This document shows, in pieces, positions 19,211-25,126 of a DNA stretch of 64,000 nucleotides. Under the pieces are notes generated by a model. That model was given only the letters and a program-made list of their open reading frames with translations, was not told where the DNA came from and ran no database searches. Source of the stretch: Terriglobia bacterium. GTDB lineage: Bacteria > Acidobacteriota > Terriglobia > Acidiferrales > UBA7541. Numbering within the stretch: position 1 is the stretch's first letter; every line of letters starts with the position of its first letter. The position numbers were made by a program, and so were the translations under genes. The stretch covers positions 1 through 64,000 of the forward strand of contig JAIQES010000037.1 in the NCBI GenBank assembly GCA_020073705.1. Reading direction: 5' to 3'.

Positions 19211-20182
19211 TCAGGACTTTCTTTCGCGGTCAGGTTCAACCGCGGTTTCGACCCGATTCAGCCGGTCTACCAGGGTATTCAAGGCCTGGAGCAACGACTC
19301 AATCAACGGGGGATTATCACCGTTGCCTGGATGCGGAAAGGGCTGGGCTGGCGCCTGCACGAGTGGATCGATAATGTGCAGATCGAAGTCGCGGGCCACT
19401 TCTTCTATGATTTCTGGAGGCACAGGATTGAGCTGGTCCACAAAGGAACTGACCAGGGCATGTTCGCACAACAGATTAGTCACCCGGGGGATTCCGCGGG
19501 CGTAGCGGTATACGGCCGCAATGGCCTCCGGACTGAAAATCTCGGTGTTTTCGGCACCGGCGATGCGCAGGCGCTCTTGAATGTAGCCTTGCGTTTCCTC
19601 GATGGTGAGCTGACGCGTCTTGGCACGCAGCGTAATGCGCTGCCGAAGCTGGCGCAGTTGCGGCTGGCTAAGTTTCTGGTCCAGTTCAGGCTGCCCCGAG
19701 AGCACAATCTGCAGCAGCTTTTCGGTCGAAGTCTCCAGGTTGGTCAGCAACCGAATTTCTTCCAGCATCTGCGGCGAAAGGTTCTGCGCCTCGTCAACAA
19801 TCAGCGCGGCGCGTTCCCCCGCCTGGTAACGCTCCAGCAGCCACTGGTTCAGCTTGAGGAGCATCTGGCCCTTTTGCCGCGATTCGCAGGGAATGCCGAA
19901 GTCGGCCATCATGAACTCGAAGAACTGCATGACGCTTAGCCGAGGATTGAAGACAAACGCTGTCGAAACGCGTTCCTTGTGCAGCCATTCCAGCAGCTTG
20001 TTGACTAGGGTGGTTTTCCCGGTCCCCACCTCGCCGGTCAATAGAATGAAACCCTTGCGCGTCTCAATTCCATAGGTCAAGCAGGCCAGCGCTTCCTGCG
20101 TATGATGCGTCAGGAACAGATAGCGCGGATCCGGGTTGACGTTGAACGGGTTCTCTTTGAGCCCGAAGAACTTCTTATACAT
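19211..20182 (-). CDS. ExeA/GspA-type AAA ATPase (XrtA/EPS-associated family)
   Basis: 323 residues. The N-terminus MYKKFFGLKENPFNVNPDPRYLF is the typical ExeA/general-secretion ATPase start. Walker A GEVGTGKTT is at ~50-58 and Walker B AALIVDEAQN at ~126-134, followed by 'LEEIRLLTNLETSTEKLLQIVLSGQPEL', which is diagnostic. The length and motifs match the ATPase associated with exosortase/EPS loci (pepcterm_ATPase type) as well as ExeA. The C-terminal tail is Pro-rich and lacks a peptidoglycan-binding domain. The neighbouring outer-membrane barrel and Wza-like genes on the same strand suggest a role in polysaccharide export rather than type II secretion. Confidence 0.88.
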   Translation of the reverse strand: MYKKFFGLKENPFNVNPDPRYLFLTHHTQEALACLTYGIETRKGFILLTGEVGTGKTTLVNKLLEWLHKERVSTAFVFNPRLSVMQFFEFMMADFGIPCESRQKGQMLLKLNQWLLERYQAGERAALIVDEAQNLSPQMLEEIRLLTNLETSTEKLLQIVLSGQPELDQKLSQPQLRQLRQRITLRAKTRQLTIEETQGYIQERLRIAGAENTEIFSPEAIAAVYRYARGIPRVTNLLCEHALVSSFVDQLNPVPPEIIEEVARDFDLHIIDPLVQAPAQPFPHPGNGDNPPLIESLLQALNTLVDRLNRVETAVEPDRERKS

Positions 20183-20319: not shown

Positions 20320-21786
20320 TCATTCAACCGCACGCAGATGCCAGTTTACCGTCATACCGCCCGTTTGTTGAAAACCCGTTACACCGCAGCTCGCGACCGG
20401 GCATACAACAGGATTATATTGCTTCAGGAGGCCATAATTGAAGCTAATCCACGCGTGTCGCCCAAGCTGACGGACAAGGTTCGCGCCGATGAACCAAGTG
20501 TTGAAGCTGGCCGTAGCGGTGCCAACTGGGACCAGGTTTCTGTTGAATGCATAACCGCCGTTCACCGACCCGGACCAGAACCGAGTAAATTGATGGTGCA
20601 GCGACCCCCTAAACGTGTTGCTGAGGGCGCCGAAAAGTACGCCCGAACCATTGGTGAGCCCCCGCGCAAACCCAAGTGAGAATCCGCTGCGGCGGCGCTC
20701 ATAGGTTAAGGCGCTATTGACTAGCCCCGTCCACATTTGAAAGTTCCCGCTTGCCAGGCCGGTACCACGGATCTGCTCCGGCCCGGCCGCCGCCTGGAAC
20801 GCCAGCCGTCCAGTAATCTTTCTTCCAAAGGCCAACGCCACCCCATAGTCCCCTGTCGAAATCGAGGTGCCAGTGTAATCAATTTTGCCGTAGCTTGCGA
20901 GGACGGCAATGGAGTCTTTGGGGTCCAGCAGATAGTCATAGCCTGTTTGCGCGTTAATGCTGCGGCTGCTGATATAACCCGTGCCGGGGAAATGCAAGAT
21001 CCCATACGAGCCGGCGAAGGAAAATGCCGATCGCCGGCTGAAGGAATATTCTGCCTCGCCCAGAACTGTGTTCATGTATCGCATAACCTGCCCCGTCTGA
21101 ATGGTATCGGCCAGGACAAATCGCTGTCCGATGTTGTGCAGCGCATCTGCAAAAGTGGAGGAAAATTGCCCGATGAGTCCGGGTCCTCCCATGCCAGCTC
21201 CACCAAAAAGCGCCAGCGGTGAGACCGCGAAGTCGTCACGCAGATGCAGGCGCCAACGCTCCCAGTCGATTTCTTGCGCGATAACCAGATTGTGAAATGA
21301 CCGATTAGGTGTGGGACCATGATAGAGATTTTCCCCGCCGTCGTAGGTGGCAGTGAAATGGTAGCGGCTCCAGATTCGGTTGAAATTCAGGCTCCCTCCG
21401 AATATTGTGACTGCCTGTAGTCTGGACTGCCCCGCTGTGTATATTTGCCCGGACTGCCCCAATTGACTAAAAGAGACCGCGGGATCAAAGACGTTGCGCG
21501 AGTGTTGCAATGAACCCACGCCGAAAAGTTCAGCGCCGGAAAGTGTATTGGTATCCGGTTCGACCTGCGCCAGATCGTATGGCCCGGGATCGTATGCTGA
21601 AGAGACACCGCGCGCGGCCGGAACAGGCGCCTTGCCGAAGCCGTTGCTTCCACCGGAATAGATAGGAGGAATCGGAGAAGCAGGAGTGACGGACCGTGGA
21701 TCCTGTTTTTGATCTTGCGCGCGGATTGCGGTGACGCAAAGCACTAGAGCGACGGCGAGGGCCCGGACTGTCTTCAGCAATTTCAT
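20320..21786 (-). CDS. Outer-membrane beta-barrel protein of EPS-type locus
   Basis: About 488 residues. The ATG at 21786 is preferred because a GAGGTG ribosome-binding site lies 6 nt upstream; a GTG at 21795 is in frame. A signal peptide ends at AIRAQ. A Pro-rich linker is followed by ~380 residues of alternating hydrophobic/polar strands with repeated aromatic-terminated segments (FHFTATYDGG-like, SFSRRSAFSFAGSYGI, YGVALAFGRKI, LTYERRRSGFSLGFARGL). The last strand ends MTVNWHLRAVE. This is typical of outer-membrane barrels adjoining polysaccharide export genes. It lies 12 nt downstream of the Wza-like gene. It probably forms or assists the outer-membrane exit for a polysaccharide, although the pore partner is inferred only from context. 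Confidence 0.75.
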   Translation of the reverse strand: MKLLKTVRALAVALVLCVTAIRAQDQKQDPRSVTPASPIPPIYSGGSNGFGKAPVPAARGVSSAYDPGPYDLAQVEPDTNTLSGAELFGVGSLQHSRNVFDPAVSFSQLGQSGQIYTAGQSRLQAVTIFGGSLNFNRIWSRYHFTATYDGGENLYHGPTPNRSFHNLVIAQEIDWERWRLHLRDDFAVSPLALFGGAGMGGPGLIGQFSSTFADALHNIGQRFVLADTIQTGQVMRYMNTVLGEAEYSFSRRSAFSFAGSYGILHFPGTGYISSRSINAQTGYDYLLDPKDSIAVLASYGKIDYTGTSISTGDYGVALAFGRKITGRLAFQAAAGPEQIRGTGLASGNFQMWTGLVNSALTYERRRSGFSLGFARGLTNGSGVLFGALSNTFRGSLHHQFTRFWSGSVNGGYAFNRNLVPVGTATASFNTWFIGANLVRQLGRHAWISFNYGLLKQYNPVVCPVASCGVTGFQQTGGMTVNWHLRAVE

Positions 21787-21798
21787 CTTATTCACCTC

Positions 21799-22290
21799 TT
21801 ATGGAACGACAATGGTGTCGCCCATTCCCGGCAGCATGGGAAATGCGCCCGCGCGAAGCACTTCGCCGACTACGAACACGCGCTGGCTATTGATTGCCGT
21901 GACAATAACCGTCACCTGCGGCTCATTGAGATACTTGCGCAGTCTCTCGGTCACCGTTCCGGCCAGTTGCTGCGGCGACAGTCCAGCCGCCTGCACGTCA
22001 TTGATCAGCGGCAGCGAAATCCGCCCGTCGGGGCGCACCGGCACGACGCGACTTACATCCGGCTCTTTCCAAACGCTGATATCCAGCACGTCTTCCGGTC
22101 CGATTAGATAGGCCGGATCCATTGTCGCCGGGGTAGGCGCCGTCTTGCTATCGGCCGCGGGGGCCGCGCTATTCCGAGCTGCAGCAACCGTCGTTTCTTT
22201 CCCGTCATTCTTTTTGTCTTGTTGCGCTGCCCAGGTCATTCCCGTGTTGGCCAGTACAATAGCGGCAACGAAAATTATCTTTTTGTTCAT
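21799..22290 (-). CDS. Short Wza-like polysaccharide export protein (truncated SLBB)
   Basis: 163 residues from the ATG at 22290, which has a GAGGAG site 7 nt upstream. ATGs at 22296 and 22305 are also in frame, the last overlapping the upstream stop. A signal peptide precedes an Ala/Lys-rich linker. The polysaccharide export domain is clear: YLIGPEDVLDISVWKEPDVS, VRPDGRISLPLINDVQAAG and LSPQQLAGTVTERLRKYLNEP. Only the first strands of an SLBB domain follow (INSQRVFVVGEVLRAGAFPMLPGM), and the protein stops at DTIVVP, where relatives continue with a helix-containing SLBB domain. It is therefore about half the usual length. The stop is followed directly by the ribosome-binding site of the barrel gene. 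Either the SLBB was lost or this is a short variant. Confidence 0.82.
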   Translation of the reverse strand: MNKKIIFVAAIVLANTGMTWAAQQDKKNDGKETTVAAARNSAAPAADSKTAPTPATMDPAYLIGPEDVLDISVWKEPDVSRVVPVRPDGRISLPLINDVQAAGLSPQQLAGTVTERLRKYLNEPQVTVIVTAINSQRVFVVGEVLRAGAFPMLPGMGDTIVVP

Positions 22291-22301
22291 CTTCATTCTC
22301 C

Positions 22302-23318
22302 TCATTGCCCATCCACATTGCCGGAGCCATCAAGACCTAATTGTTTCAGCTTGTAGAGCAACGCCTTGTAGCTGATTTGCAGCTCGCGCGCCGTTCTCTT
22401 ACGGTTCCAGTGTGTGCGCTCCAACTGTTTCAGAATCATCTCTCGTTCGGCGTGCCGCGACGCTTCCCGGGCTGCCTCTTTCAGCGACCGGCCATAGGAA
22501 TGCGCATTTCCGGGGAGCGGCGCCGTTGTGGACACGGTCGCCTTCGATGCATCACCAATCACAAGATCCCCGGTCGCGAGTTGCTCGTCTCCCAGAGCCA
22601 CGATCTTTCGCGCGACGTTCTCAAGTTCACGAATGTTTCCTGGCCAGGAATGCCGTGACAGCAGGTCCATCGTCGCCGGACCCAATTGCGGTTCCGCCCG
22701 CCCAAACAACGATGCATATTTCTTGAGAAAAAAATCGAGCAATTCCGGGATGTCATCCTTGCGGTGGCGGAGCGGTGGCAAACGCAGGCAGACGCCGTTG
22801 ATACGGTAATAAAGCTCCTCGCAAAAGCGTCCGTCGCGCATCTCTTCCTCAAGATTGCGCGTTGTCGAAGAAATTATCCGCACACTGAGGCAATTCTCTG
22901 ACGGCACGCCGGCGCTATTGGGCAACAGATTGAGAAGCCGCGCCTGGCTTGCAGGGTCGAGGTGACTGATTTCATCCAGGAACATTGAGCCACAGCTCCT
23001 TGTCCCCTTGCCTGTGCCACTCTGTTCACAGTTCAACCGCGCTGCAATCGATTCCGACGTCAGTCCAGCGCAGCCACATTTCACGAATGCTTCGTTCCAC
23101 CGCCTTGAAAGACGGTGAATCTCCAGCGCTACTACTTCTTTGCCGGTGCCACTTTCACCAACCAATAGAACTGGAATGTCCGTGGGGGCAATATCGGCAA
23201 TCGTGCGCTCCAAGGCACGCATTGCAGGGCTCACGCCATGCACAAAATATTGATTGAGGCCTAGACGAGCATTTTTTGCCCCAAACGATACTAGATTTTC
23301 ATCGGCCTGAATGACCAT
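22302..23318 (-). CDS. Sigma-54-type AAA+ regulator lacking the GAFTGA loop, Fis HTH
   Basis: 338 residues. There is no receiver domain; a ~25-residue N-terminus leads into an AAA+ domain with Walker A GESGTGKE (54-61), Walker B-like SMFLDEI (111-117) and the conserved [15 protein letters not shown] block. The C-terminal helix-turn-helix reads HWNRKRTARELQISYKALLY. Where active sigma-54 activators have ELFGxxKGAFTGA, this protein reads ARLNCEQSGTGKGTRS (~93-108), so the GAFTGA contact loop is missing. It should still bind DNA and perhaps ATP, but it may not open sigma-54 promoters; it could act as a repressor or as a partner in mixed hexamers. The AGAGGTG site just before the ATG supports the start. 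Its stop abuts the Wza-like gene. Confidence 0.88.
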   Translation of the reverse strand: MVIQADENLVSFGAKNARLGLNQYFVHGVSPAMRALERTIADIAPTDIPVLLVGESGTGKEVVALEIHRLSRRWNEAFVKCGCAGLTSESIAARLNCEQSGTGKGTRSCGSMFLDEISHLDPASQARLLNLLPNSAGVPSENCLSVRIISSTTRNLEEEMRDGRFCEELYYRINGVCLRLPPLRHRKDDIPELLDFFLKKYASLFGRAEPQLGPATMDLLSRHSWPGNIRELENVARKIVALGDEQLATGDLVIGDASKATVSTTAPLPGNAHSYGRSLKEAAREASRHAEREMILKQLERTHWNRKRTARELQISYKALLYKLKQLGLDGSGNVDGQ

Positions 23319-23385: not shown

Positions 23386-23401
23386 AGCAACGTATGGGCC
23401 A
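23386..23401 (-). promoter_or_regulatory. Putative sigma-54 (-24/-12) promoter of the GAFTGA-less regulator
   Basis: On the minus strand the sequence is TGGCCCATACGTTGCT, close to the consensus TGGCACG-N4-TTGCW. GG and GC are 10 bases apart, as required. It lies ~68 nt upstream of the ATG at 23318, giving a ~55-nt leader. Confidence 0.6.
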
Positions 23402-23780: not shown

Positions 23781-24848
23781 TCAATCTGTAGTGATCGCAG
23801 GACGTTCGGTCACAACCGCGGTGCTAGCCAAAACCCGTTTCGCCGGCAATCCTGCGCGGCGGATCTTATACAGCAACGCCCGATAACTGATTTTCAAGGC
23901 ACTGGCCGTTCGCTTACGGTTCCAACGGTTCGCCTCAAGCACCCTTAGGATAATCTTGCGCTCAAGATCATGAACAGCTTGCCGGGTCATTTTCTTCAGA
24001 TGTATCTGGCCGTCCATTGGTATCTCCGGGGCTGTGTGAGTTTGCTCCCAATTCAGCAACTCACTTGACACTGCGTCTTCGGAATCCAGGATCACGTACC
24101 GTTCGATCAGGTTTTCCAGCTCACGGATATTTCCCGGCCACGGGTGTCTTTCCAGCAGCCGCAGGGCTACGGGTGAGAGCGGCCGTACCTGAACGTTGTG
24201 CCGGATTCCATGAGTCTCGAGAAAATACGCGACCAGATTACCGATATCTTCGGAGCGTGCGCGCAGCGGAGGGAGCTGTATGGTCACAACGTTGATTCGG
24301 TAAAAAAGATCCTGGCGAAAGCGTCCGCGCGTAACTTCCTGCTCGATCTGGCGATTCGTAGCACAGATCACGCGCAGGTGGACGTGCCGGTCTTCTTGAC
24401 CACCGATTCTGCTGAACTGTCCATCCTGCAACAATTGCAGCAGCTTGGCCTGTAGCGACTTGTCGATCTCATCAATCCCATCGAGAAACAGCGTGCCACC
24501 CTCGGCCAACTCGACGCGTCCGGGCTTAAATGCATACGCGCCCGTGAACGCGCCCTTCTCATAGCCGAATAATTCGCTCTCGAGCAGCGTTCCTGGAATC
24601 GCTGCGCAATTCACTTTCACAAATGCCGCATCGGGCGCTGCCGAAAGATTGTGAATGAAGCGTGTCAGCAAGCCCTTCCCAGTGCCACTGTCGCCCTGAA
24701 TCAGGATCGGCACACCCGACGATGCGACCTTTTCCACCTTCTGCCGGATCGTTTGCATCGCAGCGGAACAACCAAAAATTATATGGGCGGGAGGAAGGTC
24801 GCCCATCCGGCCCGTCGAACCTGATCTGGAAATGGCTGTGGTTACCAT
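23781..24848 (-). CDS. Sigma-54-dependent AAA+ activator with Fis HTH, no receiver
   Basis: About 355 residues from [11 protein letters not shown]. An upstream GTG at 24929 would add 27 residues, but a -24/-12 promoter lies inside that extension, so the ATG at 24848 is preferred. The AAA+ core is complete: Walker [27 protein letters not shown] with intact [38 protein letters not shown] and [17 protein letters not shown]. The Fis-type HTH at the C-terminus ([22 protein letters not shown]) is very like that of the downstream regulator, so both may read related sites. There is no N-terminal sensing domain, as in PspF-like activators, so activity is probably set by another protein or by expression level. 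Confidence 0.92.
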
Positions 24849-24897
24849 ATCGTATGCTTTCGAGACAACGAAAAACCACCCCCTGTTTTTTATTGAA

Positions 24898-24913
24898 AGC
24901 ACCCAATGAGCCA
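24898..24913 (-). promoter_or_regulatory. Putative sigma-54 (-24/-12) promoter of the GAFTGA-containing regulator
   Basis: The minus strand reads TGGCTCATTGGGTGCT, with GG and GC 10 bases apart and TGGC and TGCT matching the consensus. It is a weaker match than the site at 23386-23401. It is ~50 nt upstream of the ATG at 24848 and fits auto-activation. Confidence 0.4.
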
Positions 24914-25126
24914 AAGTTTCATGGTTCACAGCAAAGGATTTGGGTGGGGTTTTCCATGCAAGAGCATACTAACTGCTTTAAGGTCAATCGCTTGCTGTTA
25001 TTTTAGTAATGGATCGACTGAGAAGGTAGATACGGCTAAAGCTGTGGAAATTACAAAACAGAGGAAAATAGATTCTCTTTTCCGGCACCATACTTCCAAA
25101 AAGAAAAAATCTTGAGAGTCTTGTTA

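Follow-up and report, generated by a model that had tools for sequence, protein, structure and literature searches.

The existence of bEBPs without a GAFTGA motif is already known (PMC3162934, PMC10274813), and the described examples, namely the NtrC proteins of Rhodobacter capsulatus and Caulobacter, VpsR, TyrR and HupR, act at sigma-70 promoters (PMC10274813, PMC3162934). The L1 segment holding GAFTGA is deleted from both of these NtrC proteins while the remainder of the AAA+ core is kept (PMC10274813), as in the loop-less protein reported here; however, they carry a REC domain, serve nitrogen genes at sigma-70 promoters and are NtrC orthologues, whereas the present family forms a separate clade. 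VpsR of Vibrio cholerae resembles the loop-less protein in its AAA+ domain and Fis HTH, its GAFTGA deletion and its polysaccharide locus (structural alignment Z 21.6; PMC3162934). The two differ in that VpsR possesses a receiver domain, while the loop-less protein has none and a predicted sigma-54 promoter stands in front of its gene. The receiver-domain protein VpsR works with sigma-70 and c-di-GMP, and a REC domain is also carried by NtrX. NtrX of Brucella abortus (PDB 5m7n) displays a similarly shortened L1 and its AAA+ core aligns with a Z of 23.8, but its HTH sequence is different, and with 189.9 bits against a cut-off of 600 the loop-less protein falls well short of the NtrX family.

HrpR/HrpS and FleQ/FleT are paralogous bEBPs without regulatory domains that act jointly at one sigma-54 promoter (PMC9542535); these pairs co-activate, whereas here one member is devoid of GAFTGA and its gene forms part of the operon that is its likely target. 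The PrsR/PEP-CTERM regulon of Proteobacteria is likewise comparable, since a bEBP operator and -24/-12 promoters stand at its EPS-linked genes (PMC1569441) and its export protein and ATPase families are related to those of the operon described below. The proteobacterial motif 1, however, ends in TTTACA with a spacer of ~63 nt (PMC1569441), in contrast to CCAC-N3-GTGG lying ~134 bp upstream in the present case, and unlike the PrsR/PEP-CTERM system, no exosortase was found in the genome under study and the regulator lacks the loop. No description of the loop-less family was found in a literature search, which covered few subscription papers. A loop-less clade without a sensor domain, regularly heading a sigma-54-type EPS operon and associated with a conserved operator, appears to be new.

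The regulator and its adjacent paralogue

The whole stretch of Terriglobia bacterium DNA analysed, 64,000 nucleotides in length, is hereafter termed the window. The following features of the regulator and its neighbour were identified in it.

22302..23318, minus strand: loop-less bEBP-like regulator of 338 aa (ORF, Pfam, orthologues, AAA+ model)
22995..23042, minus strand: L1 remnant, residues 93-108, ARLNCEQSGTGKGTRS, replacing the GAFTGA loop (alignments, pLDDT)
22821..22823, minus strand: codon of Cys166, which corresponds to arginine finger R162 of PspF (Arg in all 33 remaining orthologues of the comparison)
23781..24929, minus strand: adjacent paralogue of 382 aa with an intact KGAFTGA, candidate activator or partner (no N-terminal sensor domain; Walker B D-G)

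The 338-aa ORF starts at an ATG with an AGGTG ribosome-binding site and matches Sigma54_activat (PF00158; residues 28-177, 2.2e-30), AAA_lid_14 and HTH_8 (1.8e-11) in Pfam. About 25 residues precede the AAA+ core, with no N-terminal sensor domain and no REC match in the Pfam search. The original prediction, made from the DNA letters of this stretch, had reported Walker A (GESGTGKE) and a Fis HTH, both of which are present, and a merely "Walker B-like" block, which is in fact the fully canonical MFLDEIS. Its central observation, the missing GAFTGA segment, was borne out by alignment in this protein and in all 34 orthologues considered below. In comparison with the adjacent paralogue, the L1 segment is 10 aa shorter and the pre-sensor-I loop (L2) is shorter by 4 aa.

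Structure prediction by AlphaFold returned a confident AAA+ core (pLDDT >90) and values of about 60-70 over residues 91-110, the L1 remnant being mostly unstructured. Among solved structures, the model lies closest to the AAA+ domains of bEBPs, the loop-less NtrX and VpsR among them, and the fold aligns to NtrC1 with a Z of 23.9. Except for one arginine finger in the window copy, Walker A and B, the arginine fingers and sensor II of the sigma-54 interaction AAA+ fold are kept. The protein stays below the cut-offs of the ntrC model (173.5 against 558.6 bits) and of PrsR (TIGR02915; 170.3 bits against an equivalog cut-off of 502.6), and a REC-type relative in the window genome also falls below the latter with 379.1.

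The neighbouring paralogue with an intact GAFTGA had been correctly recognised, although the description of the two HTH regions as near-identical was somewhat overstated: 17/25 residues match, including 8/9 in the ISY-ALLYK recognition segment. Its Walker B reads LFLDGIDE, in which Glu is replaced by Gly despite the intact GAFTGA-type loop, and its orthologues in every one of the six genus members, as well as in several genomes of g2 and g11, share the D-G. Neither this Gly nor Cys166 of the loop-less protein had been noted in the original prediction. Variants of the motif itself, GSFTDA and GAFTNA, also occur in the paralogue family (L131, 15217-16359, minus strand; also G008, G023 and G024) and are possibly another route to altered sigma-54 contact.

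Age and conservation of the loop loss

A profile search with the loop-less protein gave matches in 55 of the 95 genomes of the order, a few of the weakest matches being GAFTGA relatives. After classification, 50 sequences were retained as loop-less, one per genome, and GAFTGA is found at the L1 position in none of them (0/50), the one chance motif match in the sequence of G035 falling outside L1. All 34 orthologues of the order that were compared in full, with protein identities of 45-74%, are without the loop (34/34). The segment between the switch residue and Walker B measures 23-35 aa in these 34, against exactly 42 in 27/27 GAFTGA-type relatives. The loop-less sequences constitute one clade in the tree with 100/99 support, and five more orthologues with the same synteny were identified in a second order of the class, the deletion being directly read in three of the five. 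For the single unsaturated loop-less pair dN/dS was 0.052/0.437, i.e. ~0.12, and 0.19 was obtained for the paralogue. The loop-less protein is an old, conserved Acidobacteria protein of single origin that is under purifying selection. Because the loss is common to every orthologue compared, chance, a lone sequencing error or a recent frameshift as its cause is ruled out, and the scenario that might have undone the original prediction, a solitary defective copy among GAFTGA-bearing homologues, was not encountered.

The 34 orthologues also reveal which parts of the ATPase were retained. The Walker A Lys (34/34), R162 (33/34), R168 (32/34) and the sensor II Arg (34/34) persist, which suggests that selection has continued to act on ATP binding and on the interface between subunits; a Cys in place of the first arginine finger is seen in the window copy only. 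Decay is seen at the glutamate-switch Asn (27/34), the sensor I Asn (32/34) and the Walker B Glu (lost in 12/34). In PspF, the Glu-Asn switch links the nucleotide state to L1 control (PMC4132715), and switch decay in the loop-less clade therefore fits the loss of the loop. As L1 is gone throughout the clade, L2 is shortened and the L1-coupled glutamate switch has decayed, engagement of sigma-54 by this protein alone would be unlikely, and the earlier claim that it probably cannot activate transcription by itself is, by inference, well supported.

Conservation of this kind bears on whether the gene is simply a decaying pseudo-regulator, kept solely for translational coupling to the downstream export gene. 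The window copy has lost an arginine finger and is followed by an export gene with an internal deletion, as would be expected of such decay; however, Walker A, the fingers, sensor II and the HTH are strongly conserved in the 34 orthologues, the protein is present in two orders and dN/dS is low. We therefore hold pseudogene-like decay to be highly improbable, and applicable at most to the window copy.

The export operon, its predicted promoter and its candidate operator

The loop-less gene heads an exopolysaccharide (EPS)-export operon. An SLBB export gene lies directly 3' of it in 30/34 loci, usually followed by a beta-barrel gene and an XrtA-type ATPase gene, and the SLBB-downstream arrangement recurs in 5/5 genomes of another order. 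The original prediction had proposed to look for the same loop replacement in synteny, and both were found together across the order and in the second one. The operon and its upstream region comprise the following features in the window.

21799..22305, minus strand: polysaccharide export protein (Poly_export, TIGR03027-like), overlapping the regulator stop codon, with an internal deletion
20320..21795, minus strand: beta-barrel-like protein of the outer membrane, also encoded in this operon (without a family match; named by sequence character and synteny)
19211..20182, minus strand: XrtA/PEP-CTERM-type EPS ATPase (TIGR03015; 3.5e-88, below the equivalog cut-off)
23386..23401, minus strand: predicted sigma-54 promoter TGGCCCATACGTTGCT (-24/-12), present in 6/6 genus genomes, the only perfect match in the genome
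23524..23539, minus strand: candidate palindromic operator/UAS TTGCCACAATGTGGCA, which precedes the -24 element by 138 bp and has no second perfect match in the genome

The exosortase family TIGR02602 had no match in the window genome (G000), which suggests that polysaccharide export is the sole task of the XrtA/PEP-CTERM-type export protein and ATPase. The export gene of the window carries an in-frame deletion of ~150 bp that joins GAFPMLPGM to GDTIVVP and removes most of the SLBB part, which is intact in the three relatives compared; the deletion is either a real loss or an assembly artefact. The GAFTGA paralogue can itself sit directly upstream of an SLBB export gene in genomes where no loop-less gene was detected (L144, L248, L250, L251 and L253 of genus g3, and L258 of G058); neither a sigma-54 site nor an operator is clearly recognisable ahead of it, and this arrangement can be regarded as a second type of EPS operon.

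Alignment of the upstream regions of all six genus members exposed two strongly conserved blocks, TGGCCC-N5-TTGCT (-24/-12) and GAAA...TTnCCAC-N3-GTGGnA, the operator lying 137-138 bp above, within an intergenic region that is otherwise poorly conserved. The palindromic form TTgCCAC-N3-GTGGaA, ~134 bp above the promoter, is kept in 6/6 genus genomes, and many other genera have an operator at a distance of 129-138 bp above -24. At fixed thresholds, the composite of promoter and operator was detected at 17/34 loci against 1.5% of background windows and 0.1% of shuffles, the loci being related and hence non-independent trials. It was seen in 0/34 reverse-strand regions and, in genomes where no loop-less gene was detected, at 1/22 SLBB loci. 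Sigma-54-like words alone occur in 26/34 regions on the forward strand and also in 13/34 on the reverse strand, for which reason little weight attaches to single promoter matches beyond the genus. In the 95 genomes the consensus operator TTGCCACTTNGTGGAA has 12 matches, 10 of these directly before the loop-less gene, and its reversed control has 0. A recognisable operator is missing at about half of the loci (g6, g8, g11 and several of g12), several of which have degenerate versions at the same place. The window genome encodes a single rpoN.

The operator is also found away from the loop-less gene. In g12 genomes (L311, L312, L313, L315) a GGDEF (diguanylate cyclase-like) gene close to the REC-type regulator has TTGCCACAAAGTGGAA or a close version, together with a sigma-54 promoter, in front of it. 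These g12 genomes include G073 and G075, where no loop-less gene was detected, and in G065 operator and sigma-54 site stand before an EPS sugar transferase gene (the GGDEF and sugar transferase names are taken from translated sequences). The notion that the operator is private to the loop-less gene is weakened by these sites. Since they include genomes without a detected loop-less gene, and since the recognition helices of the three regulator types (loop-less, GAFTGA paralogue and REC-type) are close, the loop-less protein probably has this operator in common with at least one of its two GAFTGA-bearing relatives. A GGDEF gene under the same operator would link c-di-GMP to the EPS regulon in some genera.

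These sites also bear on whether the protein, in the manner of VpsR or R. capsulatus NtrC, controls sigma-70 genes elsewhere, its place in a sigma-54 operon setting expression only. Known GAFTGA-less bEBPs do act at sigma-70 promoters (PMC10274813, PMC3162934), VpsR too controls a polysaccharide locus, and the model can be aligned with the structures of both VpsR and NtrX. The best candidate operator, however, stands before a predicted sigma-54 promoter, and the REC domain of VpsR and NtrC is absent. As the genome contains hardly any other such site, there is no evident sigma-70 target, and the sigma-54 genetic setting makes a sigma-70 role less likely; we judge it distinctly unlikely.

Possible partnership, competition and feedback

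The original prediction had offered the repressor, the decoy and the hexamer partner as roles for the loop-less protein, and all three are live options. Its pairing of the protein with the neighbouring paralogue holds for this genus only, where the two genes adjoin in 6/6 genomes. Elsewhere, the paralogue is several kb away in some genomes and not within ~10 kb in the rest. No copy of it was found in G035 (99% complete); there, the loop-less gene has a GAFTGA response regulator as its neighbour instead. Paralogue matches were obtained in 78/95 genomes at the search threshold, the REC-type relative being the sole match in a few. A fixed partnership with the adjacent paralogue was accordingly rejected outside the genus. 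Upstream of the adjacent paralogue no convincing pair of operator and promoter was found.

The main rival to the explanation preferred below is that of a co-activating partner, in which the loop-less protein would join a mixed hexamer as a subunit that is required for its activity or enhances it, anchoring the ring at the operator and supplying ATP-site residues while a GAFTGA-bearing activator supplies the sigma-54 loops, with positive feedback as the outcome. The enhancer distance of the operator, the conserved ATP site and arginine fingers, and a paralogue without a sensor domain and, in this genus, without the Walker B Glu are all consistent with it, and the hetero-oligomers formed by HrpR/HrpS, FleQ/FleT and VnfA paralogues provide a precedent (PMC9542535). 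The operator is moreover largely missing at SLBB operons without a loop-less gene; several g2 genomes without a detected loop-less gene keep the SLBB orthologue, and few composite sites precede it. On the other hand, the catalytic complementation that such a ring might entail is not seen: losses of the Walker B Glu are non-complementary across genomes and several g2 genomes lack it in both proteins, which led us to reject a division of labour at this residue. The paralogue is also non-adjacent outside the genus and was not found in G035, and the operator occurs in genomes without a detected loop-less gene. Co-activation is unlikely in our estimation, though the strongest of the rivals.

We tentatively favour, at somewhat less than an even chance, the explanation that a sigma-54-blind enhancer-binding protein, produced first from a sigma-54-driven EPS-export operon, damps its own operon. 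Since a predicted sigma-54 promoter and enhancer precede the operon that this gene opens, a setting which the original prediction had overlooked, autoregulatory feedback is the natural model. The protein keeps the parts for ATP binding and ring assembly (Walker A, arginine fingers, sensor II), together with a Fis HTH recognition helix nearly matching those of the GAFTGA-bearing regulators of the same cell. Upon expression of the operon it would build up and bind the same CCAC-N3-GTGG operator, either competing for it alone or entering mixed rings with a GAFTGA-bearing activator, for which the adjacent paralogue of 382 aa, the REC-type response regulator or both are candidates. Fewer working L1 loops would then damp further activation, amounting to negative feedback on EPS export. 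Operator binding by this protein, ring formation and the sign of the effect are inferred here, whereas the loop loss with its age and single origin, the purifying selection, the operon position and the conserved promoter and operator sequences associated with the gene are observed. Against feedback damping, an operator at enhancer distance suits activation as much as repression, the AAA+ core would be free to decay in a simple competitor and yet is conserved, and roughly half of the loci have no recognisable operator.

Considered more broadly, and with the sign of the effect left aside, the family may represent a dedicated sigma-54-blind ring subunit or competitor that arose a single time in this class of Acidobacteria and was kept over at least two orders. 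It would act at a sigma-54 enhancer instead of sigma-70 promoters, its gene lying in the operon under its control, as a built-in dominant-negative or co-subunit for enhancer-dependent transcription. We consider the chances of this broader proposition to be evenly balanced.

Overall, the described GAFTGA-less bEBPs act at sigma-70 promoters whereas an entire clade is tied here to predicted sigma-54 promoters with a conserved enhancer. It is therefore a natural system in which to ask how many functional L1 loops are required in a bEBP ring, and whether a cell adjusts its sigma-54 output by means of 'blank' subunits. It also furnishes a concrete regulatory site for EPS export in soil Acidobacteria, where the control of EPS has hardly been studied.
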